Shown here one piece after another: positions 21,948 to 64,000 of a stretch of 64,000 bases of DNA; positions within the stretch are counted from its first letter, which is position 1, and the number at the start of each line of letters is the position of its first letter. The DNA is taken from assembly GCA_963930775.1 (NCBI GenBank), contig OZ005698.1:9475406-9539405 (forward strand). Direction: 5' to 3'. The notes under the pieces are model-generated. The model ran no database searches and had not been told where the DNA came from. It worked only from the letters and a program-made list of their open reading frames with translations. The translations under genes were made by a program, and so were the position numbers. The DNA comes from Cliona cf. orientalis. Lineage: Eukaryota > Porifera > Demospongiae > Clionaida > Clionaidae.

Positions 21948-21979
<32 letters not shown>

Positions 21980-22237
21980 AGGGAGAGGGAGGGAGGGAGA
22001 GGGAGGGGGAGGGAGGGATCAAGGGTGGAGAGAGAGAACATAATAATATGATTGTATGAAATAAACGAAGATTGTCTGCGGACAACTTAACTGTTCGATA
22101 AAACTTGCCGACATTTTTACTAGATGCTCTAGGGCAAAAGTCGAAACGTCGGCAAGTTTTATCGAATGGTTAAGTTGTCCGCAGACAATCTTCATTTATT
22201 TCATGCAGATAGCAACTGAGAACGATGTCACTGTACA

Positions 22238-22283
<46 letters not shown>

Positions 22284-22538
22284 CTCACTGTCCATGCACC
22301 TTACCCAGCCTAGCAGGTTGAGTGACGTTTGCCATGAAGCCAAGATCGCTGGTAGTCTCGCTGATTACATCTGTAACCTCGCTGAGTACTTCTGGAGTAA
22401 TGAGAGTCTCTCCCTCAAATATATTTCGTCCAAAAATATTTTCAGGAAGAACCAACACAGTCAGCACCAGAGACAACGTCACAATGTTGGTGTCAGGACT
22501 GCAGTGTTGAAGTATTTGAGGATGAACGCAGCAGCATA

Positions 22539-22622
<84 letters not shown>

Positions 22623-23931
22623 GCTCTTACACCATCAAATCTACTATGGATCAACTTTTATACTACATGCATACTCACTCGTGAGTGACAAACTTGTCTT
22701 CTTCATCAGGAGTCACAGAGAAGATGAGCACATCAGACACCTCTCTCCCAGCTAGCTGCTCGTTCAGCTGTACATTATACAAACATGCGAACAATTAATG
22801 TCACATGACAATCACATGATTATAATATCTGACTACTCACATTGTTGACCAATACTCTTGACGTTGACACCACTTGATCGGAGAAAGTTTGCACTCCGAA
22901 CACTGCCAGCGGAATAAACAGCTCCACTGTGTACTGCTGAATACCAAGGATGTTGATCACTGCCCTACTCGACTCCACCGAGCCTTCGGAGTTCATCGCC
23001 ACACAGTGGTACACGCCCCTGTCGTTAAGCTCGACCGATTGGATGTAGTAGGAGGGGTAAACCTGTCCCTGGAGGGGGGTGTCGTCTTTGTACCACTGGA
23101 TCGAGGGCTGGGGGCTTCCCGATATGATGCAGCTCAGATTCACCGAGCTGTAGATACCGACGAAAGTGGTCTGAGGTCCTTTCTCAATTACTGGCCGAGT
23201 TTTCTGCACGATAGCTGTCAAGAAAAAAAAGGAAGAATTATTTATTAACAAAAGCGTACACAGTGTGTGCTTGATTTGAGAAGTAGTTGAGATTCAGGAT
23301 CTTAGTTGGTCATGTGATAAAGCTATTGACCAATCAGTGTGCAGTACAATGATGTAATGCTTTTCAGAACATCACCACTGACAAACAAACAAGCCAACTA
23401 ATCTTAAAGTTCCTAGATCAATACCTTCATCACAGTTGGTTCCCTTGAAGCCATCGGTACACTTGCAGATATAGGTGAGCGGTCCATTCTCACAGGCGCC
23501 CCCGTTCTGACACGGATTCGGGTCACAGGAGTCGGGCAGAGGGGCAGGGGTCACAGTGAGGTTAAAGGGCGGCTGGACTACATCAATGGTGCCACGGCGG
23601 TTTGAAGCACTGCACTCGTACAGACCAGCATCGCTTTCGGCGACACCAACAACTGATAGAACACTGGTGAAAGTTTTGTTGATATTCTCTCGTATTCCGG
23701 TACTGACAGTGGTCTCGGTAAGTTCAAACTTCTTTCCACTCTCAGCGCTGATGAAGGTGTTGTCCTTGAACCAGGAGAATGACGGGGTTGGCACACCATC
23801 GGCAGAGCAGCTGAAAGTAACACGGCCGCCAGCCACCACTGTCTCATCTCGACCAGTGGAGTTGATATAAGGAGCAGCTGTGGGAGTGAGAGGGAATAAA
23901 TATATTTTCAAGGACAATAATTTCTAGCTGG

Positions 23932-23998
<67 letters not shown>

Positions 23999-25135
23999 GT
24001 CTCCCCCTCCCCCTCTCTCACCATAGACGGTGACTCTGGTGTAGTCCTTGTCGTAACCAGCAGGGTTGCTAGCTCGAACGGCGTAGACTCCGTCGTCAAG
24101 AAGTGAAGCGCTTGTGACAGTCAGTGTTAGCATATCTGATGAAAAATCGAACCTCGGATCTGCCGAGTCGTCAAACTCCGCCTCCAGGCCACTGAGAGAA
24201 GAGGTGAAAGTCCACGTTATGTCGCTAGGCAACACTTGAGGAATGTCGTTAGAGATGGCAAGCACAACTTTGAACCCTTCCTCGAGGAGAGCATCAATTT
24301 GCTGTGCTTCGGCAGATACAATGGGCGGAGCTATGGGAAAATAGGAAAAAAAAAGATTTTAAAGCTACCTTTAATTTTCCACATTAATCTTACTCTGAAC
24401 TGTGAGGGTGGCGCTGGCTGTTTCGTTGAGATGATCATTCTCAGCATAGCAGGTATAAGTCCCAGCATCGCTGGTCATCAATGCGCTCACCGTCAGCATG
24501 GATACGATTACGTCACCACTAGACGACGTCGTCGAAATGGTGTACTTTGAACTCTCCATGATCTCTTGACCACCAAACTGCCACAAGATGGTGGGCGTTG
24601 GCTCACCAGTCACATTGCAGGAGAAGGAAGCTGATTGGTCGATTGGAACGGCAGTGCTACGAGGACCACCAACTATCATAGCACCAGCTACAGAGAAAGA
24701 GATGTAGTCATTATAAGTTAAAAAAATCTGAAGCCAAACTAGAAATCTTTTTTCTCTATTAGAATATCTTTCATTCAACCCGAATCCAATGATTAAATTG
24801 ATGGAAGGGTAGGGGCGATATAGATGGCTCACCTTGTACGTTGACCTGTATGGTGATGGTCTGATTTCCTGTCACATGACCAACAGCGATGGTATAATTT
24901 CCCTCATCAGCGTAACTCAGTTGGTTGACGGTCAGCGACTGCATAGCCCTTGAGAATACATATCGACTGTCAGCGGCAGATGTGAGGGGCGTGGCCAGGT
25001 CTCGCTGGTGGTACCATGTGATCTGCGCTTCCGTGACAACTGGGTAGTCGTTTTCGATTGTAATTCCAATGGTGAGTTCAGTGTTGATCAATCCGATCAC
25101 TTCGGGGCTGATGGCAGCAATGACGGGCAGAGCTG

Positions 25136-25195
<60 letters not shown>

Positions 25196-28100
25196 GAGAG
25201 GGAGAGAGAGAAAGCACAAAAAATGGTACAAGTTCACACTCAGCTTGGCTATATAGCTAGCTATGGATCTCTTCCCTTTCCCACTGAACACAAACTTCAA
25301 ATTGTACTATTCTTTACATTGCACAGTGAGGGTGGCTGAATCCGATTCGTTGGTGAACACTCCGGCATCCGTGAGATTATTCGTTGCCTCGCAGTAGAAC
25401 ATGCCCCCATCGTCAGCTGTCCCAATGCTGGGCAGGGTCAAAGTACTCGTCACGGTGACCTCTGTTGACCCCGTCTGGCTATTACTCACGCCATTATCGA
25501 TACGAGTGGGGGCAGCCCCAGAGTCCACCCTGTACCACGTCAAGGTGATGGGGGCGGTACCGTACGCCAAGCACGTGAAGGTCGCGTTATCATTGACCAA
25601 TAGAGTGGAGTCCGTGGGGTGGGCTGTGATCGTCACTGGAACTGCAGGTGGAGAGAAAGCAAAAATTAATGTGCATCACTGGTGGTTCAAAGGTCAAAGT
25701 CATCTATAACTGATCATACATGTAAAAATTTAATAGTGAATATTTTGTTGTTAAATATATTTTCGGACAGCCTTGGCTTGTGCAAAAATTAAATGCACGA
25801 AAATACGTCCGCAATATTAATGATAATGCGGTACAGGGAAAAATTATCACACGAAATATTTTAGACATGAAATATTCATGATTTATATATGGTACATTTT
25901 CAGTCTCACAAACACGTTTTTTTTCTACATAGATCCACTCACCCTCCACAACCACATTAGCGGCGACAGAAGTGACCATTCCTCCAGAGAGGCCATTGCT
26001 GACGGAGCAGTTGTAGAGAGCCGTCTCCTGGACAGAGCAGACTAGCAGTGTCGACTGAACAAACTGTTCCCCCCTCTCCTCAAGAATCTCCGATTGAATA
26101 TTGTCAGGGTCATTCACTCGTTCCCCCTCGCGGTACCACGTGATCATTGGCAGGGGGTAGCCTACGGCCACGCATGTCAGGAATACACTAGAGTTGAATA
26201 TCGGGTAACTATCAGCTGGACCAATCACAATCGTCGCTGGGGTGCTATTGACGGAGAGGGTAAAGTTCACGGTGGTGGAGATACTGCGACTGGTAAGAGT
26301 GCACTCGTACAGTCCTTCGTCCGACTCCTGGGCGCTGCAAATCTCAAGGATCGACTGGAGGTAGCGATTGTCTCCTTGCATACCAAATTCTTCATAAATT
26401 GTGACTCGGTCGTCGGTGTCGTTGGCGATGGTAGCTCCGCCCGTAGACCAGGAGAGTTCAGGGTCCAACCCAACACCAGCACAAACCATCATGATGGTTT
26501 CACCAGCTCGAACGAAGACATTGTCAGGGGGAGCCACGACAATGGAGGCTGGAATATTGGGAGGGGGGGAGGGAGGGAGGGAGAGAGAGTAAAGGTAGGC
26601 ATAAACTAAGTTTTAATCAACATATTTACCTATGTTGATGACGTTCAGTATGAATGAGGAGCTGTTGCTTCCTCTGGAGTTGTTGGCAGTGCACGAGTAC
26701 TGCCCGGCATTCTCTACCTCCACACTGCACAGCTCAAGGATGGACTGAGTGAACACTTGGCCATTTTCTATCACCTGAGAGTCATAGATGGCGACAAGAG
26801 AGGAGGTGTCATTGCTCAGCAGCTGGTCTCCAAACTCCCAGATGAAGTTGGGAGGTTCATCTTCCCCATATCCCACACAGACATAGGTCACTGTCGTACC
26901 AGCATCAACCGATATGCTGGCATTCGGAGCTATCACTATCTGTGGGTGCTCTGCAGAAATAATATGAGTAATACAGTCTAGTTTGTGCATATCAATTGTC
27001 GTTGTTAGGTGTACATTATGTATGTACTGTACATGTAGCCTTCTCATGCTCATTAATTACAAGTTCTTGTACATGTAATTTATTTTTACATGTACATGTA
27101 CGTACATGGCCAGACGTATACAACTTATGACATCACTAATTCATCGTCATGGAGACAAACTAGATCAACTTTAAAAACTGAAATTGACAGCTCAGTTGGT
27201 AAGAACAGTATCTATGAGTTACTTTTCAAGCAAGGAATATTATTCAACGTTAGGCACTCTTTTATCTTTATTTAGCCCAGAACATAGTTTAGCTCGAGCT
27301 AGTCTGTATCTACGTATGTAGCAGCTGCTTACCTCCAACCATGTTGACTGTGAGAGTGAAGTAAGAACTAGCATTGGCTATCCTATTGGCCACAGTGCAC
27401 TGATAGAGACCAGCATCAGTGAAATCAACACTGCACACCTCCAAGAAGGACTGGACAAAGGTGATACCAGACTCCACCATCACCCCTTCAGTGATAGTTA
27501 TTCGGCTATCATTCTCGAGCAGGTTGCCATTTTGAGACCAGGAGATGGTAGGCTGAGGAAAACCAGTGCCAACACAAACGGCTACAAAGGTGGTCAACTC
27601 ATCAAGAGTGTAATTACTAGGGGCTATGACGACACTTGCTTCTCCTGAAAAATAACAAAAATCAATTAAATCAGATTATGGAGTTAATTAGTGGCAGCCT
27701 TCAAACGTACCAGCTCTGACTTGAACTTCAAACTCCACTGAATCATTTCCAGCCAAGTTGCTGGCCAGACAGCTGTATGTACCAGCGTCACCAGGGCTAA
27801 CACTGCATACCTCCAAGATGGATGAAGTGAAAAGAAGTCCATTGCCTTCGAATTGTTCGTTGTAGATGGATATGAGTGTGCCATTTGTGATCTCTGTGCC
27901 ATCTTTGTACCACTGTATATTGGCAAAAGGACGCCCAGTAGCTGTGCACACCAGAGAGACAGTGTCCCCCTCAGTGAATGGATCAGTCACATTGGGGCTA
28001 ATCACAACTGTAGGAGCAACTGAAAAAAAAATTAAATGATTTGTGAAGTATATTATATCAACTATAGCTGTGCTTAGTCTTACTTCTTGGTCTGACATTG

Positions 28101-31100
28101 AGAGTGAACATGGAGCTGTTGCTTCCTCTGGAGTTGTTGGCAGTGCACGAGTACTGCCCGGCATTCTCTACCTCCACACTGCACAGCTCAAGGATGGACT
28201 GAATGAACACTTGGCCATTTTCTACCACCTGAGAGTCATAGATGGTGACGAGAGAGGAGGTATCATTGCTCAGCAGCTGGTCTCCAAACTCCCAGATGAT
28301 GTTTGGAGGTTCATCTTCCCCATATCCCACACAGACGTAGGTCACCGTCGTACCAGCATCAACCTCCATGCTAGCATTCGGAGCAATAACGATCTGAGCT
28401 GGTTCTAAAGAGAGAAAGGGAGAAATGAAAAGTCAACTCGAGTTATTAAAATTATAACGAAGGGCTCACCTCCAACAGTATTCACAGTGAGTGTGAAGTT
28501 GGAGCTAGCGTTGACAAGTCTATTGGCCACAGTGCACTGATAGAGACCAGCATCCATGAAGCCAACACTGCACACCTCCAAGAAGGACTGGACAAAGGTG
28601 ATCCCAGACTCCACTATCACCTCTTCATAGATGGACACTCGGCTGTCATTTTCAAGAGGGGATCCATTGAAAGACCAAGAGATGCTTGGCACCGGGAAAC
28701 CAGTTCCAACACACACGGCTACCATAGTTGCTGACTCATCAATTGTATAGTCGACTGGAGATATCACAACAGTGGCTTCAGCTGAAACACAAAATAATTA
28801 GTGTCAACAATATTAATTTTTGTTGTGATAGATTCTTTCTAATGTACCAGCTCTGATTTGAACTTCAAAATCCACTGAATCATTTCCAGCCGGGTTGCTG
28901 GCCACACAGCTGTATGCACCAGCGTCACCAGGGCTAATACTGCACACCTCCAAGATGGATGAAGTGAAAAGAAGTCCGTTGCCTTCGAATTGTTCGTTGT
29001 AGATGGATGTGAGTGTGCCATTTGTGATCTCTGTGCCATCTTTGTACCACTGTATATTGGCAAAAGGACGCCCAGTAGCTGTGCACACCAGAGAGATAGT
29101 GTCCCCCTCAGTGAATGCATCAGTCACATTGGGACTAATCACAACCGTAGGAGCAACTGAAAGCAACACAAAAGTTTATTAAGTAAAGAAACGAAAGTGG
29201 ATGATGAAGAATATCGAAGATGATCTGAAAAAGCTCGCTTGCTAATATTTTAACTAGAATATCAAATTTAGTTAAAATATAAGCCAACAAGTTTCTTCAG
29301 CTTATCTCAGAAAATTTAAAGGTTCATATCTAGTAGGTGTACATCTCAGAGAAAGACGATTTCCTAATTTGCCCACAACTGTTACTAGGTCAATAACTTA
29401 CTTCTTGATCTGACGTTGAGAGTGAAAGAAGAGCTGTTGCTTCCTCTGGAGTTGTTGGCAGTGCACGAGTAATTCCCAGCATTCTCTACCTCCACGCTGC
29501 ACAGCTCAAGAATGGACTGAGTGAACACTAGTCTATTTTCCATCAACTGGTTCTCATAGATGGTGACAAGAGAGGAGGTGTCATTGTTCAGCAGCTGGTC
29601 TCCAAACTCCCAGATGATGTTTGGAGGTTCATCTTCCCCATATCCCACACAGACATAGGTCACCGTGGTACCAGCATCAACCGTTATGCTGGCATTTGGA
29701 GTAACTACCAACTGAGGTGGCTCTGTAAAGGTAGACAAAAAAGCTCATTAATAAATGTTGTCTTGGAGCTACAATAAGCTGCACCGCTCACCTCCAACAG
29801 TATTCACAGTGAGTGTGAAGTTGGAGCTAGCGTTGACAAGTCTATTGGCCACAGTGCACTGATAGAGACCAGCATCCATGAAGTCAACACTGCACACCTC
29901 CAAGAAGGACTGGACAAAGGTGATCCCAGACTCCACTATCACCTCTTCATAGATGGACACTCGGGTATTGTTCTCGAGAGGGGATCCATTGAAAGACCAC
30001 GAGATGCTCGGCACAGGGAAACCAGTTCCAACACACACGGCTACCATAGTCGCTGACTCATCAATTGTATAATCCACAGGAGATATCACAACACTGGCGT
30101 CCCCTTCAGAAAAATGATGACAAAGAAACTATTAACTGAAAAAGCTTAAAGAGCTAAATAAATTCCACTAACCTAGCATCACTTGGACATCAAATTCACT
30201 AGTATCATTTCCAGCAGGATTTTCAGCCACACAGCTGTAAGTGCCACGGTCGTCAGCGCCCACGCTGCATAACTCTAAGATGGACGTAGTGAACAGGAGT
30301 CCATTCTGCTCAACCTCTTCGCTGTAGATCGAAGTCAGAGACTCGTTGGTAAGCAGCAGGCCATCTCTGTACCACTGTATGGTGGGGTAGGGGCGGCCAG
30401 TAGCCGTGCAAGCCAAGGCCACTGTGTCTCCCTCGGTGAAAGGACCAGTCACATTCGGACTAACAACAATAGTTGGAGCAACTGGGTGAAGAAATAAGCA
30501 TAATATGATAGCAATGCACTAGACGTAGTGCAGCAGTTTTCATCTTACTTCTTGGTCTGACGTTGAGAGTGAAAGAAGAGCTGTTGCTTCCTCTGGAGTT
30601 GTTGGCAGTGCACGAGTAATTCCCAGCATTCTCTACCTCCACGCTGCACAGTTCAAGGATGGACTGAGTGAACACTAGTCTATTTTCCATCAATTGGTTC
30701 TCATAGATGGTGACGAGAGAGGAGGTGTCATTGCTCAGCAGCTGGTCTCCAAACTCCCAGATGATGTTTGGAGGTTCATCTTCCCCATATCCCACACAGA
30801 CATAGGTCACCGTCGTACCAGCATCAACCTCTATGCTAGCATTCGGAGTAACTACCAACTGAGGTGGCTCTGTGAACAAAAGATCACATAAACAGATATT
30901 GATGCTGGATTCTGACAACTGTATCAAGAATACCTACCCTATATATAGCTCAATTCTTAGCTAAGCTTTCTATGATTCTGAATAAGTGCTCTACCAAGAA
31001 ACGCTAGCAGTGTGCATTTGGATTAATTGTGGCGTACTCCCTGACAGGCTGTAATAATACAAGGAATTGAACATTGACAAGAAAAGCTATCTATCATCAA

Positions 31101-34100
31101 TGCTAGCTTCCCTACAACTGAATCACAACAATAGGCAAAAAAATCCAGATATGAAATAATATTTTTGCGTATAATATGGTAGTGGTATAACACTGCCATA
31201 AGAGATGTGTACAACATTGCAGCTCACCTCCAACCCTGTTGATAGTGAGTGTGAAGTTGGAGCTAGCGTTGACAAGTCTATTGGCCACAGTGCACTGATA
31301 GAGACCAGCATCCATGAAGCCAACACTGCACACCTCCAAGAAGGACTGGACAAAGGTGATCCCAGACTCCACTATCACCTCTTCATAGATGGACACTCGG
31401 GTGTTGTTCTCGAGAGGAGATCCATCAAGAGACCAAGAGATGCTCGGCACAGGGAAACCAGTTCCAACACACACGGCCACCATAGTTGCTGACTCATCAA
31501 TTGTGTAATCCACGGGAGATATCACAATGCTGGCCTCTCCTGCAAAATTCATTAATAAACACAAAGAAAGATAGCTAATATTTAGAATGTTCAATTATGC
31601 GCATTAAAGTATGCATACCTAGCGTAACTTGAACATCAAACTCAAACGTCTCATTTCCAGCAGAATTGCTCGCCACACAGCTGTATGTACCAATGTCATC
31701 AGCGCCCACACTGCACACCTCTAAGATGGACGTAGTGAACAGGAGTCCATTCTGCTCAACCTCTTCGTTGTAGATCGTAGTCAGAGACTCATTGGTAAGC
31801 AGCAGGCCATCTCTGTACCACTGTATGGTGGGGTAGGGGCGGCCAGTAGCCGTGCAAGCCAAGGCCACTGTGTCTCCCTCGGTGAAAGGACCAGTCACAT
31901 TCGGACTAACAACAATAGTTGGAGCAACTGGAAAAATAACATGAAATGTTTGTGAAATTTACGATCCTAGCATAAATAAATGCACATGTAAGCATTATAT
32001 AAACAACGTTTCTATGATAGCCTAGATATAAAGGATATTATGAACAGTTTAGCCACCAAAGTTCTTACTGACTGTCATGTCATGCAAAGATAATAGGTGT
32101 TGATGCTCACTAAGTAACTATTCCGCACACTTTGACAGAGGTACAGTAGCAAACTGGCAGGAGGAATCAATGAGGAAAATGTCACATTTAATTCACAAAA
32201 CCAACAGGGCATTAAAAATATTGGAACTATCCGTCAAAAAATTAACATGCATAGCATTCCGGCTTAAGTTTTATTACTACACTATCCTCCGATCTCTCCC
32301 CCTCAAGAGTTTGGAATTCACTTACTCACTCCTACCCTCACTCACGTACAGGACAAAAGAAAGGCGCTACCGCTCTCACTCAATCCATTAGCCAACAAGC
32401 TTCCAGTACAAAGGTTTACAACAGTGCAACCGAAAGGACATGTGGTGTCACTTTTACACACACACACACACACACACACACTTCCTCAAACATACACAAA
32501 TAATAATGCACACCTCTGCTATCGGTGACAGTGATGGTAGTGGTGTTGGTCTCACTGATAAAACCATTGGTGGCATTGCAGGTATAGTCTCCGCCCTCGT
32601 CCAACTCAATGCTGCAGATCTCCAGTATGGACTGTATAAACATGAGGTCGCCCTGAGTGACCAGCTCATCGTACACAGTGTGCTGCGAAAGAAAAGGAAA
32701 GAGAGTAAACACAGCACATAGCGTCTCCACTACCAGAACCGAAACATCATACCACGCATACTGATAAGGTATTGGATGACACTATTAAATTTTGTTATAG
32801 GATAATCAATCACTAGAAAATTATTGTATTGCTCCGAATAGTATTCAATAATAGGGTACCAGGGGCGTAGCCAGGATTTTCTGAGGGGGTTTCCTAGCAG
32901 TTGCGCGCGAAGCGCGCGCGAAAAATTTAATGACCACGCCCACTTTTCGGCCACGCCCTATAATTAACGATCGCCATTTTCAGCAAGAGTTTGCCAGATT
33001 CTCGAGATTTTGGCAAGGAAAAGCACAAAAGGAGGAGATCTAGGCTAAGTTTCAGGAGATTTTAGTGCCTGCATATTGAATCTGGAAACCAAGGGGGTTT
33101 CCTGATGTCTAAATCATACTAAGATAATACTGAATCTGACTGCCAGGGGGGGTTTCCGGGCAACTAAGAAACAACTAAGCTACGCCCCTGGGTACAGTAT
33201 CAGTATGATTATTGTAATCCAATCCAGGAAACGTGACTTTTACTGCAAAAGAAATCCACTGTACCCTAGCACACTCAGGAATTTTCCTATCCATAGAGAG
33301 AGATCTCCCTTATTCCTACCAACCCTCTGCCATTAACAACTGCTTCCAACAACAAAGAAAACTCTCAAGCTAATTACTATAAACAGCCTATTTTAGCATC
33401 AATTTGCAACCCTATAGCACTGCTATTCACAGTTACTAAAGGGAGGAAATGCTTCAGACTATATAGCAGGTCTTACTCTGTTGGTGGTCTCATTGGTGAT
33501 GGCGGCGCCTTCAAAGTCCCAGCTAATGGAGGGGGTGGGGTTACCCTGGGCCACACACACTAGCAGCACTGTCGAGTCAACTTCAACAGTGTCACTGGAT
33601 GGAGTTATGACCAGAGATATCTCAGTGGAATCTAGAGGTGTGTGTGTGTGCGTATGTGTGTTTGTGTAGGGGTTGTACTACGACATTTAACGGTACTAAG
33701 GAATCAGAGGGAAATGGTCTACGAAAACAACTCAGAGACACCATTCTTTCGTGCATTATACTCCAGCGCACAATCAAAATACTCCCAGTATATGTAGTAG
33801 GAAGGTAGGATAAGTGTAGGTACACAAAATTCTGTACTAATGGTTCGGATCTGTGACCATCTGGACTGTGGTCAGCACAACTTCCTCCAACCGACCACTG
33901 TTTGTTTATTGCAGTACAATACTCCTTACAACACAAACAGAAACACAACAGCACACTACCCCTTGTTTAATACCAATAAATAAATCATTAATTTTATCCT
34001 CATTACACAAGAAAATTATTATCAATTTTTCAACTCACTAGGTAGAATTCCCACTGTGAATGGTGCACTGGTGGCAGTGCCAGCGTCACTGGTTGCTGTG

Positions 34101-34864
34101 CAGGCAAAGGTGCCAACGTCATCCAGACCCACCCCACAGATCTCGAGGATAGACTCGGTGAAGTTGAGTCCCATTTCCGACACTGTTTCGGCATAGATGG
34201 AGATCAAATCGCTCGAGGTGGGGTCTAGTAGGACTCCATTGCGGCTCCAAGTGATCTCGGGCTCTGGGAAGCCGTTAGCCACACAGACCATGAGCACAGT
34301 GTCACCGAGGTTGACGTCTTGGTTGACAGGAGAGACTATCAGCTGAGGGACAGTGATCTCTTCGGTGAAACTAATGTTCCAGCTAAAGGACTCGCTCCCG
34401 ATCGAGTTAGCAGCGCGGCAACTGAACTGCCCCGAGTGCGCCACACCCACGCTGCAGATCTCGACGATCGACTCGAGAAAGACGATTCCATTTTGCGTCT
34501 GCGTCTCGGTGTAGATGGTGACCATGCTGTCGGAGTCGTTACTCAGCTGCTGGCCGGCTGGATCGATCCAGGAGATCGCGGCGCTCGAGTGATCCTCCGT
34601 GTCGGGGCCAAGGTAGGCCACGCACGTCATGAGCACCGTGGAGCCGTAGTCCACGCTGTATGATGTCGGTGTGATGACCAGGGATGGCGCGGCCGAGGGA
34701 GCTGAAATTGGTGCAAAAGAGATCAAACGAATAAGTTTTTTACACGCGAGGATTTAGTTGCGCTATCGCGATCTAGTGTTTATTCACTCACTTGTTCCCT
34801 GTGCGACCACGTAGTGTAGTGATAGTGTGATGAAAACGACCAGCTTCAAGAAATTGCCGGCCAT
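18201..34864 (-). CDS. Giant Ig-repeat adhesion GPCR (23 Ig, EGF, HRM, GAIN/GPS, 7TM)
   Basis: Single minus-strand gene. Signal peptide at 34789-34864 (MAGNFLKLVVFITLSLHYVVA). Ig1-2 share exon 34040-34703; Ig3 is split (33480-33640, 32530-32683); Ig4-15 are one exon each (26632-31927); Ig16-17 25945-26553; Ig18 ~25310-25643; Ig19 ~24830-25133 and Ig21 ~24020-24330 (both without the core Cys pair); Ig20 ~24390-24690; Ig22 plus one EGF (DPNPCQNGGACENG) 23426-23880; Ig23 ~22843-23215. HRM-like domain (CPCGDLEFGREASRMC) 21702-21942, GAIN 20060-21410, GPS (CSFWDQ...GGWSSRGC...CNHLTSFGLL) 19640-19789, 7TM to 18201. Most Ig introns are phase 1. About 3,300-3,400 residues. Tail ends QSQL, a possible class I PDZ ligand. 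Cell-surface adhesion receptor by architecture; ligand unknown. Confidence 0.85.
22056..22204. mobile_element. 149-bp long inverted repeat, MITE-like hairpin
   Basis: Two arms of about 55 bp, nearly perfect reverse complements (ATGAAATAAAC/TGAAG... against its mirror), around a short loop. Lies in an intron of the giant GPCR. No clear target-site duplication and no coding capacity. Confidence 0.6.
22539..22621. repeat. (CT)n microsatellite
   Basis: About 80 bp of almost pure CT dinucleotide, the longest in the window, inside an intron of the giant GPCR. Confidence 0.95.
23936..23998. repeat. (CT)n microsatellite next to a splice donor
   Basis: Pure CT run on the plus strand. On the sense (minus) strand it is (GA)n following the donor GTGAGAGAGG of the Ig21 exon. 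Confidence 0.9.
25139..25215. repeat. (GA)n microsatellite forming an acceptor pyrimidine tract
   Basis: GA run on the plus strand, so (CT)n on the sense strand, ending directly in the acceptor of the Ig19 exon (CTCCCTCCAG). Confidence 0.9.
26632..28020 (-). repeat. Ig exon triplet unit 4
   Basis: Fourth A-B-C set: VAPTVVISPNVTDPFTEG, SVVIAPSNYTLDELTTF (most diverged B) and EHPQIVIAPNASISVDAG. The B-to-C intron is longer here (about 380 bp) and holds alternating TACATG repeats. Confidence 0.85.
28084..29157 (-). repeat. Ig exon triplet unit 3
   Basis: Third A-B-C set: VAPTVVISPNVTDAFTEG, TVVISPVDYTIDESATM and EPAQIVIAPNASMEVDAG. Its A exon is closer to unit 4 than to units 1 and 2. Confidence 0.85.
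29402..30482 (-). repeat. Ig exon triplet unit 2
   Basis: Second A-B-C set. Type A here is nearly identical to unit 1 (NVTGPFTEGDTVALAC), type B has SVVISPVDYTIDESATM, type C has EPPQLVVTPNASITVDAG. Confidence 0.85.
30550..31927 (-). repeat. Ig exon triplet unit 1 (types A-B-C)
   Basis: Three consecutive phase-1 exons encode Ig types A (VAPTIVVSPNVTGPFTEG), B (SIVISPVDYTIDESATM) and C (EPPQLVVTPNASIEVDAG). The same ordered trio recurs three more times downstream, with very similar nucleotides within each type. Confidence 0.85.
32860..33190. mobile_element. 331-bp non-autonomous DNA transposon with 12-bp TIRs
   Basis: Begins CAGGGGCGTAGC and ends GCTACGCCCCTG, exact inverted repeats. Both ends are flanked by GGTAC, a probable 5-bp target-site duplication (32855-32859 and 33191-33195). 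It sits inside the intron that splits Ig3. The interior has repeated 'gggggtttcc' motifs and no ORF. Superfamily not assigned. Confidence 0.75.
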
Positions 34865-42040: not shown

Positions 42041-43816
42041 ATGTCTTCAGCAGGATCAGGATCGAGTGAGTTGGTGTTAAGGAGCGGGGCAGGCGCCTTG
42101 GTGGCGTCCTCTGAACAAAAATCTATCAAAAAGAAGCCGCCCAAGAAACCGATGGAGGAGGAGCAGTTTACAGAGGTCTGCTTTATTCAATTTACTAAGA
42201 TGACTACATGTGACTACTAGTTTTTGATGGTTTAGTATTCCAAGTATTATTATTTTGTTCCCTTAGGCTTTGACAACCATCATCAGGCGTGATTTCTTTC
42301 CGGACGTGGCCAAGCTAGAGGCTCAACTCGAATTCATTGAGGCTTCCGAGAGCAATGATTACGACAAACTACGTGAGATTTCGGAACGATTTGCCACGAC
42401 AACGCACACACCAGCAGTGGCAACCCCTGCCACTTTCGAGACCCCCTCGGTCAGTGCTACCCCTCGATCTAGGGGGAAACAGCGGGAAAAACAACAAAAC
42501 GAGGGGCCGGGAGAAAATGAAAATTCAGAGGACCAGCCCCCTGAAGCTAAGAAGCCTAAGCCAGAAGAGGCAAAGCTGGACCAATTTTTATCAAAATACC
42601 AAAGTGAGGATGACGCATCGTTTGGTGAGCTGATGGAGAAAGCGGCAGAAGAGCATCAACAAAAGCACGCCTGGCTACGAGCGAAGGAGAAAGAATACGC
42701 AGACCCATTATCCCTAGAGGGACCGGAACAGAGACAAGCCATTACTGATGGAGGGAGTGAGGGGGGAGGAGGAGCAGGAGGAGGGGGTAGTGGGGAGGGA
42801 GGGAAGATGATGATCGAACACAGGCCAGCTGGCGTCAAGACTTGGAACTATACGGCTAAAAACACTCTGATGTACATCCCAGAGGGTGTGGAGGAGAGCA
42901 CGATGGACAGGGTGAGGAAGGCGACCAAAGGGAGAGAGATCGTACACTCAAACACACGACTATCGAGAGATTTCATCAAGAAGAGAGAGGCTGCGGTACG
43001 GGCAATGGCGTCGCCGGGGGAGGAGGGAGAGAAGGGAGGGGGACCGTCAAAGAATAAGTCAGAGAAGATTGGGGTGGACGGAAAGACACTGGCTCCAGGG
43101 GAAACCCCTTCCGTCAATGGATACGACTTCATTTTTACACCCCAGATTCATCCTGGTGAGTGAAAAATAATTTTTTTTATCAACAGTAGAATATAATGTT
43201 GGGTGTATATATGTGCTGTATGACAGTTGCTTTTTGTTCATCAAAATACCGAAGTCACTTTGTATTTTTAGGTGTTGATGCGTCTCCGCTAATGACCTGG
43301 GGCACTATCGATGGTACCCCTTTCCACCTCGAGACGGACCTTACCCCCCACAGTGGCCCAACTTTCAAGATGCCCAAGGCCCCCAGGAGAGAGGAACTAG
43401 CCCATAAGCTGGTGGAGAAGACAGCCAAGGCAAACAAGGAGAGAAAGAAAGCAGCAGCAATGGCGGCTAGGTGAGTTACTAGATGAATCTCTGCCGTTTC
43501 AATAATTTTATAATAGCAATGATTTTCTTTCCCTCTCTCCAGTCCTGCACTCCTAAGGCAAAAGCTAGGTGCCACGCCCACATCGGACAGGTTACAAATG
43601 TTGTCTCCGGCCGCTCGTAAACTTGTAGCTCGTACAGCCACGCCCACTGGGATCGACAAATCCCTTCGTGCTAGCTACACACCCAAGAGAACTCCGGTAT
43701 CTGCCAGTCCACATTCCACTCCACAGTCAAAGTCTGATTCCAATTCCACCCCACGACATCATGCTGAGGGAGGCTCCACCCCCTCTCTAACTGACAATCT
43801 TCTCAATCTAAGATAG
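42041..43816 (+). CDS. ESS2: Splicing factor ESS-2 homologue (DGCR14)
   Basis: Nuclear protein associated with the late spliceosome. Exons: 42041-~42174, ~42267-43154, 43272-43470, 43543-43816. Motifs: MEEEQFTEALTTIIRRDFFP near the N-terminus (family hallmark), VAKLEAQLEFIEA, LDQFLSKYQSEDDASFGELM, WNYTAKNTLMYIPEGV, NTRLSRDFIKKRE, GYDFIFTPQIHPG, LMTWGTIDGTPF, FKMPKAPRREELAHKL, LSPAARKLVARTATP, LRASYTP and a final TDNLLNLR. A glycine-rich stretch encoded around 42750-42800 is an insertion relative to vertebrates. Family assignment is firm. Confidence 0.94.
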
Positions 43817-54055: not shown

Positions 54056-56075
54056 ATCCAACCATTCTATGAGCACATTATTAAAATTAATTTTGTCGAC
54101 TTTGTTTTCAGCATGGCCGGCGCATCGAGACGATGTGCTGTGTTATTGACTTTGAGAACCTGAGCATCCAGAGACACTACTACTGGCCGGGCATAGAGGC
54201 CCTCAAGGACGTGAGTTGGCCTGCAGGGCTCAAGGATCATATACCTTGAAGATGATTACATGTATTTGTCTTGACACTAGATATTGACTATGGTGGAAGA
54301 TAATGCTCCAGAGATTTCCTTTGGTATATTCATGATCAAAGGTGAGGGAGAGAGAGAGGGAGAGGGAGGGGGGAGGAGGAAGAGAGTGTGTGTGTTCCTC
54401 TATTGTTCTGTTTTCCTGTTACCATCATTCCATGTATGATCAGAAACACATAATTATCACTACACCGCACACACTGACTGACCCAGCTCCTGCCATACTT
54501 CCAATGGGCTACAATCTAGTCAAACACGTACTCGACGAGAAAACAAGAAAAAAGATCCACTTTCTTGGCAGTGAGTTACATAAACTAGAACTGAAGCTGA
54601 GTTGGTAGTGTACATGGCCATGTGCTAATGTAGTCAGTGGAGTTGGTCGTGTCATATGAACGCCTGCTGTAGGCCCTATGTATACAAACCTTTAAATATG
54701 TTTATTCTGATAATAATAATATCTTTTCGTTCCGGTAATTATTCTATTCCCATAGGCAATTGGAAGGAAGAGCTTCAGAAGTACATCAGTCCAGACCAGC
54801 TGCCACAGGCTTATGGTGGAACAAGATGCGAACCAGACCCTTACTGCACAAATTTTGTGAGTTCTTAGTTGCCATGTTATTTGCTAAGTACTATAGTGTA
54901 GCACTTTAGTGCTGGGTGAATATGTGCCAGTGGGACGTGCTAAGTAAAGTGTGAAGTAACGCTATTGTGGATGCTAAATGAACCAAAAATAACTTCAAGT
55001 AGCTTTGAAACGTTTCCAAAAATAGTTTTTCACAACAATTCTGACTTTCATGGCTTCAATTCTTCGATATACAGTATAGTCTTAAAGGTACTGAGGGTGT
55101 TCTCAGTGACTAATTCACTCTCTCTCTCTCTCTCTCTCTCACTCTCTCTCTCTCTCTCTCTCTCACTCTCTCTCTCCTCCTTTTCTATGTTTTCTTGTGC
55201 AGATCAACCATGGTGGGGATATCCCCGAGAAGTACTATCTAACGAACCTGACGGGGACCACCAGAGAGGAGATGGAGAGAGTGGTAATCGGACGAGGCTC
55301 TGCCCATAAGATCACGCTGGAGGTCGACAAGAGTGGTAGCGTCATCCAATGGGAATTCGTGACTTCGGAGTACGACATCGCCTTCGGCATCTACCACCAG
55401 GTCAAGGAGGAGAAGGGAAAGAAGATAAAAAATGAACTGGTAAAGTGGCTTGGAAATTAAGCAAATTTAGAATCTGACCTTTATGAAGTTACACTCCTCT
55501 CTCTCTCTCTAGATTGCCTCTCAGCGGAAACAAAGTCACATTGTACCAGAGACAGGTTTCCATGTCTGTGAAACGAGTGGAACATGTAAGTGCATGTCAA
55601 TCATGATTGTGACAGTTTGGGGAGGGAGGGAGGGAGGGAGGGGGGAGCCGGGGGGCAATAGTAATATCTTGGAATTTGGAAGAAATGGAGAGAAGTACAT
55701 ACTCAAGTAGATATCACAAAAGAAAAGTGCACCTAGATCCAGATGGTCATACACCACATGTTATTTTTTTTTGTTGCAGATATTCTCAAATTTGACAACT
55801 CGTACAGCTGGGCTCGCTCCAAGGAGGTCTTCTACACAGTGAAGCTACTGCTGCCAGGAGAAAAGCCACACCTTCACGTACCCCCGGGGGAAATGGAGAT
55901 GGCAGCTGAATCAGGGGGAGGCCACACCCCTAACTCCTCTCCTGGCTCAACTCGCTCCAGTGAATTTTACGACTGCGACATAAACGAAACTGAACTACAA
56001 GTTAACGAAACGGACAAGGCACAGGTGGACAATGGTGATGAATCAGAAGGAGCTTGCGGTACTTCTTCCACTTAA
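52869..56075 (+). CDS. SEC14-like CRAL-TRIO/GOLD protein, paralogue 4
   Basis: Tandem duplicate of paralogue 3 with the same exon breaks, including the three-exon CRAL-TRIO core ([54 protein letters not shown]). Exon 1 is near-identical to that of paralogue 3, then [20 protein letters not shown] and [16 protein letters not shown]. The NWKEELQKY exon (~54757-54857) is shared almost exactly with all paralogues. [56 protein letters not shown]. Acidic C-terminal tail ends CGTSST. Introns carry long (GA)n and (CT)n tracts (53997-54053, 55119-55173). Confidence 0.9.
53997..54053. repeat. (GA)n microsatellite at a splice donor
   Basis: Starts inside the donor context GCAAAG|GTAGAGAGAGA of SEC14-like 4 exon 3 and runs for over 50 bp. 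Confidence 0.9.
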
Positions 56076-56517
56076 AATTAAATGATTCTCTTATTAGTTG
56101 TGTGTTAGTGTGTGCATGGTTCCAAAATCTTCCAAAGATAACATCTGATCTGTTGCATAAATTGCACCTTGCTTGGGTATATAACAAATGTGCGCGATAT
56201 GGTAAAGGGTCAATAACCACAACTTCAATTTAATTATTATCATGGAATGGAATTAATTTTATGCACAAAACATTCACAAAGAGCACATTAATACAATAAT
56301 TATTTTGCTTGACATAATGGAACGAAATGATACAAAACATGACATCGTCTTCAAAGAGTAATTATTAATAATGACAAGTCACATTGCTAAAAATAGTTTC
56401 AGATAGTGGAGTTAATAATCCTTTTATTAAACATAGAATAATTATTACAATAATTAGTGATACACATCAAAGTAACTAGTATGTCTCTCTCTCTCCACCT
56501 CTCACTTGCTAGTCCAT
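56076..56517. other. Convergent 3' spacer, SEC14-like 4 / kinase gene
   Basis: 442 bp, strongly AT-rich, between two stop codons on opposite strands. Contains only presumed polyadenylation sequence. Confidence 0.6.
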
Positions 56518-58726
56518 CTACACAAACCCTGTTCCTTTCTTTCCCTCCTTCTTGTGATGGTGGAACAGGTTCCCAAACCCCTTGCCCCCGCGGGACTCTC
56601 GAGCCTCGCTGGATGATCCCGTCCTGGCCTTGCTGGACTGAGGGGGTGTGTTGGAAGGGGGAGGGGGGCGGGCGGGGGCCATCGATGTGTGGGTTGCAGA
56701 GAATTTCAACGTTGTAGGCTTAGCTCTGACTCGATAGAAGGACCCGGTTGACTCCTGTAACTCTGCAGCGAGCTCCTTGTGGTCCTGTGAGGGAGAACGT
56801 GAACAGAGAGAAGAGAAACAATAATAACCATGATTAGATTCAACAGATTCCACCCCCCCCCCTTCCAATATTTCTTACCTCGAAGTTCAGCTTTCTTGGC
56901 TTCTCTATGAGTTCACCAAGGAAGAGGTCGGGCCTGGAAGGAGAAATCAATCACGAAATAAAAATATGCAAGATAAAATAAGTACAATACTGTCAGAAAT
57001 TCTGAATTTGTTTTATGTTCGCTTCAGGAGGATTAATAATAATTTTCAATAAGGCTCTCGGATGATTTAAATTTTTTTTTTCTGAGGCAACATTTGTTAA
57101 ATTTTGAGCTTACACTCTTCCCGGTCTGATGCCAAAAGCACTGTGGCTGCTGTCATCCATGAATATGTACGGCCTTGGCTTTTCTAAATGGAGCACAGCA
57201 GGAGACAGAGCACCACTCTTCAGCATACGCACGGGATGGAACAGGACGATGTCATCCTTTTCATACCTGCAGTGATAATCACACTGGTCAACATTGCAGT
57301 ATGGAAGGAGTTAAATTTAAACAGGGAGCTGGAGTAGTATAATATTATTATAGTAGGAGAGGGATTAAATTTTTAACAGTATGGTGGGGTCAAAAAGGTC
57401 AACCAAGGTGTCACATGACTACTCACTCTGCTGGTCTTCCCATCTTGATAAGGGCGTGGTCGCTGGAGATAGTGATCGTTCCTTTGGCGGACTTCATCAC
57501 AAGCGTTTCTAGAGCCGACACGTTCGTCTGGAGCAGCTCCGAAAGCTTCTTAGCCTGGGGAAGGAGAGCCTGAAGGTCCCCACCCCCACCGACGGATGGA
57601 GTGGGCGGGGCCAGCGCCTTGTCCTGCATGGATATGATGGAGTAGCCCATGAGGTCAGGGTACAGCGTTCCGGTCGGTCCTGGAGAAGAGGCGGTGGGAG
57701 TGGACGCCTCCTTCACCTGAGCATGTTGAGGGAGTTCAGCCGTAGCTCCACCCACACCAGGCCTTTGGGGGGAGAAAAGCAAAACAGTGACATTTTTGAA
57801 ACACTTGTAAAGCAATTCTAAAGGGTAAACTCAAGTTATTTAACTATTATAAATCAAAACTGAAGCAGAAATGAGCATGGCTGAGTCAACTACTGACTTA
57901 CAGTTTGTCAGCTGTCTGGCAGAACTGGTTGAGTTTCTCTGTGAGCTCAAGGAGCACCCTTTGGTCAGGAGGAGCCATGCTGAGTCAGCAAAAAGAACAA
58001 AAAATATATATAGTGACCTCACTGTGTGCATAACAAGTGGGAAATATTGTTTAATTAGTTCAGGGGCATACCTGAGTCCCTCGAGAGCTGCACTGGGGCT
58101 GAGTCGTCCATTGCTGCTAGCTCCCGCAGCTGCCCCGGCCACGATGGTCCTCTCCATCTCATCCCCTCCTCCGCTGCTACTGTTACGATGACGGGAGGCC
58201 AGCTGCACACACACACACACATGGGGGGGGGGGGGGGGTAGACTGAAGTTGGCATTTTTACTTTCGTTGTTTGGAATACATATCCCCAAACCACTATACA
58301 TTTCCTAGAATTAATTATTGGTGAATCCCCTCTACATGTATGTACATGTAGATCCCTCCCCAGGAGAGGGGCAATATTAAAACACTTCGGACAATGCTAT
58401 GTCCATGTATGTAACTATGTTGCTGCAGATTTCTTACCTGTCCCTTGAGAGTGCTGAGCTCTGCATTCAACCTCTCCACTTCTTGGTTCCTGTAGTTGAG
58501 TTTGTTGGAAAGATCTTCTTTCTCTCTCTTCAGCGACTCCATCTCAGGCGGCTGGGCACTGCTGTAGTACGCGTTGGAAGGAGGGGGAGGTTGGGGCCAT
58601 CCCATTGGGGGGGATACGATGACGGGGGGACCACCCCCACTGCCGGGGGTACCTGCGGCGGCCCCTGTGGGGGTGCCCCTCTGCTGACGAGCATCATTTA
58701 CAACATTACTCTGTGTGCAGGGAAGA

Positions 58727-58769
<43 letters not shown>

Positions 58770-61700
58770 GAAGAGGGAATGTGAGATACTGATAAAAGGC
58801 TACAAAGCCACTTACTGAAGACAGTGATTTCAGTACCAAACTTCTCTCTTGTGCTATCTGTGTGAGGAGATGGTCGAGCTGCCCGCAGTGTTTCTGAAGT
58901 AAGACCAGCTTCTGGCCCATCCCCCAAACGCTGTTCAGATGATCGAAAAGTGGGCGGAGTTGTTCTCTGACCTTTCCCGTGACCTCGTTGATCTGCTTTT
59001 CGCAGTCTTCTCTGATCCGATCACCAATTCTGATAATCTGATCTCTCTAAAGGAGGATGTGAAAAGGTGTATATTCTAAATAATGCACATCTGTATTGAA
59101 TTTAGTTGCGTACTGTGTGATGTGACAGTTTCTTTGCGTCGTCGGCAAGAGCAGCACTCTTCTTGTCCAAGTCCTCGACCTTGAGGGTGATGGAGACGCT
59201 CGGGGCAGGGGTGGAGCCAAAGCTGCCTCCCTCGGCTACCAGGCGACCAATCTAGAGATGCAAAAATTAAAATGACTACCTGTCACATCAATTGGTACCA
59301 TACAATCCTCTATGCCTGCTCAGGCAAACCTAAATCCCTGCAGAAGACAGCCACACCCTGCCCCCCCCCCCACCACCAAACAAAAACCTTTCACGTAACG
59401 ACACACAATATTATAAAACTGTCTAGCTCACTATAATAATCAGCTGACCTGGTCCCTATGCATGACAACGGTCTCCAGCAGGACCTGGAGCTGACTCCTC
59501 TGGGTGCTGTTCGAGAGGGAATTGAGGTCTTCCTGCAGCCACTGACTGGCGAGGGCGGCCTTGGCAATTGCTTGGTTGCCCTGCTCTGTGAATTGACGAC
59601 CGACGTTGGACGTGAACCGGGATATCTCTCGAGAACAGAAGAGGCTGAACTCGTCGAGACCCTCCAGCTGTCTCCTCTGCTGGGACTGCATCAGCTTGAT
59701 CATTCCAACCACCTCGTCTGAAAACTTGTGCTGTGTACGAGAAGAAGAAATAAAGTGATATGTACATGTACGTTAGTGAAAGAGCGAGAGAGAAAGTGTG
59801 CGTGTGGAGTGTGTGAGTCTCAAGGCACAGGTGAATAATTCTATGAATATTGTACCAAAAATAATGTGACTATGAGAGTTACTCGGTGTGCGTGGACAAC
59901 TGATTACACATGTGTGTGAATGTGGGAGTTCTCAAGTAGCCCAAACCAAACACACCACTTAGTAATATCAAGAGTGTAACACAAACAAACCTGAGAATTA
60001 TACAAACACACTACCATACTCACCTCAAAAATCAATTGGACGAATTGGTTTGTGTCATTCAACTCATTCTCTGCAGAAAATCACAAGTACATGTAATTAC
60101 ATACACCCATGGTGGGGAGGGGGGAGGCTTAAGACTCACTGAGTGGTGCTATGCAGCTGAAGTCGGACATGACCTTATCGGGGCTGAGCTGCGTGATTGG
60201 GAGGAGGTAGAGGAGGGCGTGGCCCTCGGCTCCGCCCGCGTCGTCTAGTAGCTCCTTGAACTGCTGTGGGGTGAGTGTGTTGTGGCCGGCGATGTAGAAA
60301 CGGTTCTTGGTCGAGAACAGCACCACAAATTTCGACGGGAGATGGTACTCTGTGCTAGCAGCACTCACTATGTCCTCAACACTGCATGGAGGGAGGGAGA
60401 GAGAGAGAGAGAGAGAAAAAAATTTTATCAAAAACGGAAAAATCTTGGTAGAATGGACCAAGTGATATCTCAAATACAGTGGAATCTGCCTATAGTGGGT
60501 CACTGTATAAGGTAGCCACATGCTGCATACTACATGCACTTAGTCACTCGTTCAAAAAGAGACTATTTTTCTGCTGAATGGCCGACTCACGTTAGGTTGG
60601 AATCGTTGATGATCTTGTGGGAAGTCCCATGAAGAAGGTTCACGATCTCGATCTTAGATGTGATGATGTCATCCACTGTGTCGAAAAACTGCGGGAATGT
60701 CATTCTCTCAGTCGGGTCCAACTTTAGCATCTCCTTCAGAAGTTCATTCATTTTGAATCGAAACGGCCTGTGGAGAGAAAGTACTACGATCAAATCTCAC
60801 GCGTGGGTGCCTGCACTACTAAACTTACTCTGAAAATCTGTCGTAGACTGAGCGGGGCAGCTCTGTGATGTAGTTGATCTTCCTGGAGTGAGGCACCCTC
60901 TCGAACGCTATGGCGTCACCCTTGTGCTTTAGGATGCGGGGAATGTCTTGCAGTTGCTGGATTTAGGAATAACAAATGTAACGAGATTAATCACCACACA
61001 GAGCCACAGGATATCTCCCCCCCTAGATATTCAAAACTGATTAACTTACAGCGTAGAATCCGCATTGGCCAACCATCACTTTATAGAGTAGTGCTCCAAT
61101 CGACCATATGTCCACCTTGTCATCGTAGTGCTGTATTTGGAGAGATTAAAGAGGAGACAAATTGATATTGCAACTAAATATTTGAAGGTTTCCCAGTTCC
61201 CACAATCACATGAGGTAGCTAATGCATATTTATAATCATTTGTGTGTAATTTGCTGTTTGTGGCTCACCTTTCCAGGATGGAAGACACAGCTAAGAGCTT
61301 CTGGAGCCTTTAAGGGAAAGAGAGAGTGGGAAAGTGAGAGAGAGAGGGGGGGAGGTAGAGAGAGAGAGAGGTCAAATGAAGTACAGTAAATCTGATGCAT
61401 GTGTAGTAAAATTATTATAAAAATACATAGTAGTAGATGTATACATAGAGCTGTTACTGAGTGCAGGCAGTAGAGAAGCCATTGTCAAGGCCACAATGCT
61501 TAAGTATATTTAGAATGACTATATTAGCAATCAGCTGCCAGTAAAAAGGTGAGCACATGTCAGCAGGCTGAGGGGTCCCACCCTGCCTAATTAGATTCAT
61601 TATCATTCGAAATTTCAACATTCACGATCATAGATCTCAACACCCCCCCCCTCCCAGGCCCATTCAAAGCACTTCAATGACACATAAAAAATCAGCATCA

Positions 61701-63421
61701 TGACAAAGCAATGGGAAATAAAAAAAATGGGAATAAGTCTTTTGGGGGGGGGGGGGGGGGAGGGGGGGGGGGGGAGGGGGGGGGATTATAATATAATGTA
61801 GTTGTACCATAAAAACAGGTGTTCCAGCCAGTGACATCATATCAATCGGCTTCATTCCCTCGTCCTTGAAATGTCTGGCAAACCCAAAGTCTGCCAGCTT
61901 GATCTGAACGTGTATATGTGTGCATAACGAGAGGTTAGACACAGCAGTGCAGGCGCAGGTTGACATGATCACACCTGTGGCAGGTCACATGCTCAATGTC
62001 ATGCCCCTACAGTCCACTTACAGCTTCAATTACCTACACGGAACCAACTCCATTATTATGCATAGCTATCAAGTGGGAACTATTATGTAGTGGAACCATA
62101 CTGACTTCCATATAAGGAAGGTGAGTGTTTCATTTCCAAAAAGTCCCAACTGGACTTCCCACCATGTATAAAGGTAATGGAAACAAACTGCTACTTAAAA
62201 CTATGATGTAATGTGACAAAAATAGCCAATACCAGTGGTCACATGACTAGTTTAGGATGACTGGGCCTCACCTGCATCTTATTGGTGTGGGGGTGGTGCT
62301 TGATCAGGATATTCCCTGGCTTTAGGTCTCTGTGGACGATGTTCTGTTCTCTGAGCGCCTTCATACCCTTGGCTGGAGAGAGAGAGAGAGAGAGACACAG
62401 TGTCGTATGAGTTATGTGTACACAGTGATAACCAGAAAATGACCGATTGTGTGTACACATGATGTAGCTAGATAAGGATTACATTAATTAAATCAGGTGC
62501 TGGATTGAAAGGCCTAGCCTGTATAGTATTATACTGTGCTTTGCAAGTCAGTTGTCCAGTGGAAAGGGTAAATAGGCAGTGGCTCTCAAGTGCTTCATAC
62601 AGTTACACTACAAGTCATAAAGACTTTCAGTTTATATAGTGACAGAGACAGGTGCCATTCCCTAACTTTCCTACCTGCAAAGCATAGTAGCATGGCAGCA
62701 TGCTGTGAAGATAGTCCTAGGCTAGTACAGTTGACATTGAAAGGTGATGGGCAGGAGATACACACACACCTCTCTCTCTCTCTCTCTCACTCTCTCTCTT
62801 ACCAAGCTGGTGGAGGAATATGACGATCTCATCTTCCTTGAAAGGCTCCACTTTTACCAGGTGGTCCAGGTCGTATTCGCACAACTCCATCACCAGCACG
62901 ATGTAGTGCTTCATCTCCTGACAGATCAACAGCAAATTAATAAACGGACAGTACACGTAGTCATAAAAATTCACGTGTTGAATACTAAATTTCCCTTACT
63001 TGTACGTGATAGAGCTGGACGACATACTCGCAGCCTCGTAGAAGCTTTAGTATGCGTATTTCCCTATCCAAGTTTTCCCTGACTTTGGGATCCTGCTTGA
63101 AGAACTCTCTCCTTACGACCTTCACTGCCACCTCGGTAGTACCAGCCTGAGGTTGGGGGACAGCATATTAAACCTCCACACACATTAAAAAGAAGATGTA
63201 CAAATTTAGACACATGTTCAGTATAAATATTGAACAGCCCTTGCTACTCGCTAGATCTAGATGCGACTACGCTCTTTTCTCACCGTGTTCCATCCTAGGT
63301 AGACCTCGCCAAATGATCCCTTTCCAATCCGGCTGCCTAAGTGCCACACGAACCCCTCGCAGTGGGAGAGCTCCTGGGGGCATATTCGCTTCAGATCCGC
63401 CAATCGAGGACGCTGCGCCAT
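56518..63421 (-). CDS. Ser/Thr kinase (ULK/TBK1-like) with ubiquitin-like, coiled-coil and FIP200/ATG11 claw-like regions
   Basis: Minus-strand gene of roughly 18 exons. Kinase exons: 63284-63421 (Gly loop GKGSFGEVYLG), 63000-63146 (VAVKVVRRE), ~62802-62920 (LVMELCEYDL), 62266-62373 (IVHRDLKPGNI), 61811-61903 (IKLADFGFAR), 61271-61305 (APEAL), ~61054-61133 (VDIWSIGALLY), ~60832-60957, 60590-60768. The last one also carries the first strands of a ubiquitin-like fold (NLLHGTSHKIINDSNLT), continued at ~60140-60380. Then a predicted helical/coiled-coil part (59440-59730, 58440-59250), a Pro/Gly linker, and a C-terminus with YEKDDIVLFHP, RPYIFMDDSSHSAFGIRPG, LFLGELIEKP and FYRVRAKP, laid out like the FIP200/ATG11 claw. 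All catalytic residues are present. Possibly an autophagy-initiation kinase. Confidence 0.75.
61741..61787. repeat. Poly-G/poly-C run
   Basis: Nearly pure G run of about 45 bp with rare A interruptions, in a kinase-gene intron. Prone to assembly error and able in principle to form G-quadruplexes. Confidence 0.8.
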
Positions 63422-63691: not shown

Positions 63692-64000
63692 ATGGCTGCT
63701 GCTCCTACATGCCCTAGGTCTGGGTCCCTCTCCAGCGGGGACATCGTTCCCCATCGACGTAGGGCATGGGATCGACGCCCCTCGTCTCCTGAGCACGAAA
63801 TAAAACGAGAGAGAGAGAGAGGAGAAAGGATGATTGAAAGGGAGGAGGAAGAGCCAGCACCTAAAAGGAAGAAGGAAGAGGCTCCTATCCTAACGAGGAC
63901 GGGCGGGGCCTACATTCCTCCGGCTCGACTCAGGATGATGCAACAGAGCGTTACGGATAAGAGTTCTGTCGCCTACCAGCGACTCGCCTGGGAGGCACTC
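63692..64000 (+). CDS. CWC22: Pre-mRNA splicing factor CWC22 homologue, N-terminus only
   Basis: Open for 103 codons to the window edge. A basic/acidic low-complexity N-terminus with an RERERE stretch precedes the conserved block [21 protein letters not shown] and [10 protein letters not shown], which in CWC22 leads into the MIF4G domain that binds eIF4A3 in the spliceosome. The rest lies beyond base 64000. Its start codon faces that of the kinase gene. Confidence 0.88.

Follow-up and report, generated by a model that had tools for sequence, protein, structure and literature searches.

We identified in the sponge Cliona cf. orientalis a gene that, on balance, we consider to encode an IKK/TBK1-type kinase with its own FIP200/ATG11-type claw, working by the dimerisation and recruitment mechanism proposed below. 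It lies in a 64,000-nucleotide stretch of contig OZ005698.1, called here the window, from an assembly of 216.8 Mb in 149 contigs. The gene model is open throughout, the kinase motifs are intact and a ubiquitin-like domain (ULD) directly follows the kinase; an IKK-like scaffold and the claw are predicted from the modelled fold of an ortholog. The gene and its parts are as follows.

56518..63421, minus strand: whole coding gene, 21 exons, 1084 amino acids (exon table; GT-AG introns)
60685..63343, minus strand: protein kinase domain, residues 27-310, exons 1-9 (PF00069; alignment)
60591..60767, minus strand: exon 9, holding the kinase end and the ULD start together (exon table)
60191..60661, minus strand: ULD, about residues 318-405, exons 9-10 (profile; ortholog fold)
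58818..60176, minus strand: predicted helical scaffold (IKK/TBK1 SDD-like), about residues 410-654, exons 10-14 (Amphimedon ortholog fold, model residues 1-335)
57458..58710, minus strand: Pro/Gly-rich linker with short coiled-coil stretches, residues 655-917, exons 15-18 (sequence; low pLDDT in the ortholog)
56712..57455, minus strand: predicted FIP200/ATG11-type claw, about residues 918-1021, exons 18-21 (ortholog Pfam matches, profiles, ortholog fold)
56423..56428, minus strand: AATAAA polyadenylation signal, 3' of the gene (sequence)

Gene model, orthologs and domain order

The coding sequence, read from 63421 to 56518, has 3255 nt including the stop codon and no internal stop, and its 20 introns, all GT-AG, are 61-500 bp long. 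The initial annotation had proposed that one gene unites kinase, ULD, coiled coil and claw and that the kinase and the ULD are physically joined in one exon; the model bears out both points, the exon in question ending one base inside the proposed limits on either side (60590-60768 in the annotation). The kinase motifs it had listed were all located, namely, GKGSFGEV at 63325, HRDLKPGN at 62334, DFGFAR at 61891 and APE at 61307 (first codon base, forward-strand numbering), and the kinase domain is complete, with a PF00069 match of 189.2 bits in the Pfam scan, above chance. The claw motifs begin at 57256 (DDIVLF), 57169 (YIFMDDSSHSAF), 56920 (LGELIEK) and 56739 (FYRVRA). The introns carry many GA/CT microsatellites, and a very long G/C-homopolymer run occupies 61740-61790 within intron 5.

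When residues 1-420 were used as query, nine proteins stood far ahead of the rest (E-value ≤1.4e-74, 44-65% identity over the matched part) in a search that scored only the 7993 candidates with the most words in common with the query and listed the best 120 of 2600 matches. These orthologs are from Amphimedon queenslandica (P0001), Dysidea avara (P0005), Sycon ciliatum (P0007) and Corticium candelabrum (P0008), together with P0002, P0003 (labelled Em0015g1136a, presumably Ephydatia muelleri), P0004, P0006 and P0009, and their taxa cover Demospongiae, Calcarea and Homoscleromorpha. We considered calling the family sponge-specific and dropped the label, since the scope of this search supports no claim of restriction to sponges. 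The orthologs were recovered by the kinase-ULD query only; residues 318-1040 found nothing at E-value ≤1 among 7992 scored candidates, and tail queries were fruitless because the tail has changed too rapidly for a search of this kind.

In a 10-row alignment of the window protein and the nine orthologs, Glu75, the HRD Asp149, the DFG Asp172 and the activation-loop SLAGTP from Ser191 are invariant, and the catalytic Lys55 is kept in at least 90% of the rows. The ULD is placed directly after the kinase, as in the IKK/TBK1 family, by the shared exon, by a sequence profile and by the ortholog fold. Its profile scored above all shuffles against each of ubiquitin, the FIP200 ULD and the IKKbeta ULD, and weakly against the TBK1 ULD (11.0; a demosponge-only profile gave 1.6, reached by 3/60 shuffles). 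In the model of the Amphimedon ortholog, the following region is predicted to be an elongated helical scaffold of IKK/TBK1 type, with IKK1/IKK2 as its best fold matches.

The predicted claw domain

The sponge claws resemble the FIP200/ATG11 claw most clearly when they are taken together. The PF10377 family, which gives 80.7 bits for human FIP200 and has a gathering cut-off of 22 bits, matched the C-termini of the Sycon (28.5 bits, E-value 1.8e-6) and Corticium (28.9 bits, 1.3e-6) orthologs in whole-protein scans, and that of Dysidea under the cut-off (14.9 bits); none of the other 6/9 orthologs matched it at E-value ≤1. Among the best 120 of 2600 matches of the ortholog search, the same two proteins, P0007 and P0008, carried a precomputed PF10377 assignment. 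When eight sponge claws were scanned alone, PF10377 was found in 3/8 and any other Pfam family in 0/8. P0003 and P0009 were omitted from all claw comparisons because they have no alignable claw region.

Profiles built from sponge claws were also compared with FIP200. The probability of a match to the human FIP200 claw was 96.4 for the eight claws, 91.5 for Sycon and Corticium, 90.1 for six demosponge claws, 15.4 for four close demosponge claws and 1.6 for the window alone, and the hhalign scores of the four multi-claw profiles were reached by 0/150 shuffles and 0/106 real segments. The profile of the eight claws, run against the complete set of 177,635 distinct PDB sequences, returned nine matches at E-value ≤10, of which eight are FIP200 claws (5.4e-6 to 1.2e-5) and one is another protein (0.071). 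A profile of the whole non-kinase tail likewise ranked FIP200 6gma first (1e-6), the first 11 rows consisting of eight FIP200 claws and three ubiquitins. Both profiles contain the window row and zero human sequences. The window claw in turn has homologs in P0002 (8.1e-36), P0004 (6.9e-25) and Amphimedon (1.5e-18; 40% identity), and a claw fold is predicted in the Amphimedon ortholog model. A direct pairwise comparison of the window claw with human FIP200 is suggestive only, with 34, 8 and 5 of 2000 shuffles reaching the score under three settings; in the same test, kinase pieces of the protein itself gave 34, compared with 37 for the claw.

The kinship of the C-terminus with FIP200/ATG11, as the initial annotation proposed it, is thus upheld by profiles, by Pfam matches in two orthologs and by the predicted fold of a third, and is not borne out by the window sequence alone; the same holds for its HMM and structure, where an unrelated C-terminus would have spoken against a claw, and where a claw is favoured once the orthologs are used.

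How the claw may bind is a separate matter. In the accessible part of a published account, K1569 and R1573 of the FIP200 claw, together with a hydrophobic pocket, bind acidic or phosphorylated motifs, and yeast ATG11 lacks the basic pair (PMC7946963). In a gappy loop alignment, the positions of FIP200 F1574 and F1582 are hydrophobic in 8/8 sponge claws, and the hydrophobic and FYRV-like positions that form the core of the claw are conserved over sponges of three classes. Since the basic pair is missing in 7/8 sponge claws, FIP200-style binding of phosphorylated motifs may be lost; however, its absence from yeast ATG11 indicates that such loss leaves receptor binding possible. It is plausible that the sponge claw binds receptors in one way or another, and implausible that it does so exactly as FIP200 does.

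Proposed mechanism and rival explanations

The sponge protein combines features that are separate in known systems. The C-terminus of TBK1 is an adaptor-binding coiled coil and that of the IKKs a NEMO-binding segment; neither TBK1/IKKepsilon nor IKKalpha/IKKbeta has a claw, whereas the sponge protein has one at that place. FIP200/RB1CC1, the human protein whose claw grips the cargo receptors of autophagy, begins with a ULD, has no kinase and has a far longer coiled coil than the sponge protein. ATG11 of fungi and plants shares the C-terminal claw, although the PF10377 cut-off is passed by 2/9 sponge orthologs and the window protein itself has no match; to our knowledge, ATG11 has no kinase. 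ULK1/ATG1 shares the similarity of the kinase domain and the DFGFAR motif, while the sponge protein is without the ULK C-terminal domain, and we know of neither a ULD nor a claw in ULK. By analogy with IKK and TBK1, the ULD and scaffold would dimerise the protein and position the kinases, and clustering would allow Ser191, the Ser of the SLxGT motif that aligns with the activation-loop Ser of TBK1, to be phosphorylated in trans by a neighbouring kinase. The claw would replace the adaptor-binding end of TBK1 and the NEMO-binding end of the IKKs, and might carry the kinase to cargo receptors or adaptors that display short acidic-hydrophobic motifs at sites of autophagy or immune signalling, where the kinase would phosphorylate the receptors or adaptors bound. 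With claw and kinase in one chain, recruitment and substrate recognition would therefore both be built in.

Several results weigh against this reading. The window claw matches neither PF10377 nor any other Pfam family, has no sequence relative in PDB, and a search with residues 922-1040 found nothing at E-value ≤10 among 107 candidates. On its own, its hhalign score against human FIP200 is equalled by 2/150 shuffles and 2/106 real segments. Its fold is taken from an ortholog, and its single-sequence model (pLDDT 32.6) was useless and was not used. In the gappy loop, K1569/R1573 is Glu/Glu in the window, and both positions are basic only in Corticium, i.e., in 1/8 sponge claws. The claw is absent from the database sequences of 2/9 orthologs, P0003 and P0009, which are perhaps truncated models; that of P0003 also omits the ULD start and may be misannotated. 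Sequence and profile comparisons linked the helical arm to none of TBK1, IKKbeta and FIP200.

In an improbable explanation close to that of the initial annotation, a ULK/ATG1-type initiation kinase is fused to a FIP200-like scaffold as a one-chain ULK complex bypassing ATG13. Pairwise kinase scores are higher for nine ULK/ATG1-type kinases (101-127 bits) than for TBK1 (79.5) and IKKbeta (67.4), and ULK1/ULK2 were at the top among the best 60 of 2600 matches in a PDB kinase search. However, pairwise scores are lowered by faster-evolving IKKs, and the best tree of 26 rows joins the sponge kinases to TBK1/IKKepsilon (94/90), although the alternative of sponges with ULK is not rejected (p-AU 0.343). 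In this tree and in one of 34 rows, the window kinase falls among demosponge rows, which points to a demosponge source. In the tree of 34 rows, the ten sponge kinases form a single clade (99/98), and the fork uniting them with TBK1/IKKepsilon, IKKbeta and two further rows receives 69/92; the rows of these trees were hand-picked from the best 120 of 2600 matches and the IKK rows are human only. By eye, the activation-loop SLxGT matches TBK1 (SLYGT) and not ULK1 (TLCGS), the Ser before xGT being present as in TBK1 and IKKbeta. The ULK C-terminal EAT/MIT domains (PF12063, PF21127) are absent among the 12 Pfam families found at E-value ≤10 in the whole protein. We therefore treat the kinase provisionally as IKK/TBK1-like, as the tree does not reject an affinity of the domain to ULK; the combination of kinase, ULD and scaffold is of IKK/TBK1 type rather than that of the autophagy-initiation kinase once proposed. 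The predicted fold and the kinase tree agree with the proposed connection of FIP200 to TBK1/ULK kinases.

A rather unlikely alternative, though the least so of the three rivals, keeps the same architecture and makes the protein the sponge NF-kappaB IKK, with the claw as a leftover or a dimer or adaptor module without a role in autophagy. The Amphimedon and Sycon orthologs are named IKKbeta-like by NCBI, and the Corticium one TBK1-like; IKK1/IKK2 are the best matches of the modelled scaffold; an Amphimedon IKK is included in a TLR-pathway survey, as far as its accessible part goes (PMC3517549); and the receptor-contacting basic pair is missing in 7/8 claws. Against this, conservation of the claw core over three sponge classes argues for retained function, and yeast ATG11, also without the pair, suggests that receptor binding is still possible (PMC7946963, in the part accessible). 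Far less probable still is that two adjacent genes, one for kinase-ULD and one for the claw, were wrongly merged in our model. Exons 15-18, which encode the linker, show little conservation, and an ATTAAA at 58055 is the sole other AATAAA/ATTAAA inside the gene on the minus strand; however, a single frame runs through all 21 exons, and four independent database proteins (P0001, P0005, P0007 and P0008) hold kinase and claw together. So do P0002 (998 residues, contig of 3843 bases), P0004 (918 residues, 2885 bases) and P0006 (854 residues, 2837 bases), each in one unbroken frame; these contigs most simply are spliced transcripts. Window exon junctions aligned gap-free within five residues number 15/20 in P0002, 16/20 in P0001, 15/20 in P0004 and 12/20 in P0003, and the three claw junctions are also so aligned in P0002, P0001 and P0004.

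Searches of the host genome with PF10377, PF18394 (TBK1_CCD1), PF10033 (ATG13) and the human FIP200 claw found no gene; PF10377 and the human claw also miss the window's own claw, so these negatives prove no absence. One locus with a weak PF10377 match (E-value 0.289; its positions 1-3147, on contig C1 of the host genome) was rejected as a chance match, as its frames are those of a retroelement gag-pol. Downstream of the kinase gene and convergent with it, a SEC14-like gene that encodes a GOLD domain has its final exons (55201-56075, plus strand; PF13897, E-value 1.7e-6). Head to head with the kinase gene, about 270 bases separating the start codons, is a gene start that by eye resembles splicing factor CWC22 (63694-64000, plus strand), the 103 residues of which have no Pfam match. 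Farther away are a long single-exon frame for an ES2/DGCR14 nuclear protein (42267-43163, plus strand; PF09751, E-value 2.7e-55), four minus-strand frames with immunoglobulin domains within 15236-34753 (15236-15955, 24371-24871, 25704-26612 and 34022-34753), perhaps one very large immunoglobulin-repeat gene, and a weak, sub-cut-off match to the class C G protein-coupled receptor family 7tm_3 (13112-13927, minus strand; E-value 7.2e-4).

Ancestry and implications

No kinase bearing a claw of FIP200/ATG11 type came up in titles and abstracts, a coverage that leaves out most subscription journals, and the accessible part of a 2026 NF-kappaB review does not mention a claw (PMC13042239). The choanoflagellate M. 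brevicollis is described as lacking TBK1 in the accessible part of PMC8592570. Tentatively, the sponge gene could preserve an intermediate stage in the origin of the IKK/TBK1 kinases, in which a ULK-like kinase was fused to the N-terminus of a FIP200/ATG11 scaffold and the claw was later lost elsewhere. FIP200/ATG11-type scaffolds, with ULD, helical arm and claw, would then predate animals; fusion in an early animal or its ancestor would have given a kinase-ULD-arm-claw protein, which sponges retained whole, and other animals would have dropped the claw, the remainder becoming TBK1 and the IKKs. Loss of the claw from a common composite would thus explain the likeness in fold of TBK1 and FIP200. 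Alternatively, the composite may have been put together by a fusion within sponges.

In the composite, two human proteins whose kinship had been suspected before seem to be still undivided, and a living protein with all three parts makes the structural resemblance noted by Shi et al. a testable history. It bears on the origin of the IKK/TBK1 kinases, on whether immune and autophagy kinases have a common ancestor, and on whether a claw of its own can lead a kinase to cargo. What NF-kappaB studies call the sponge 'IKK' may differ in kind from what has been assumed; and if the ancestral account is true, innate-immune IKK signalling would be an offshoot of selective autophagy.
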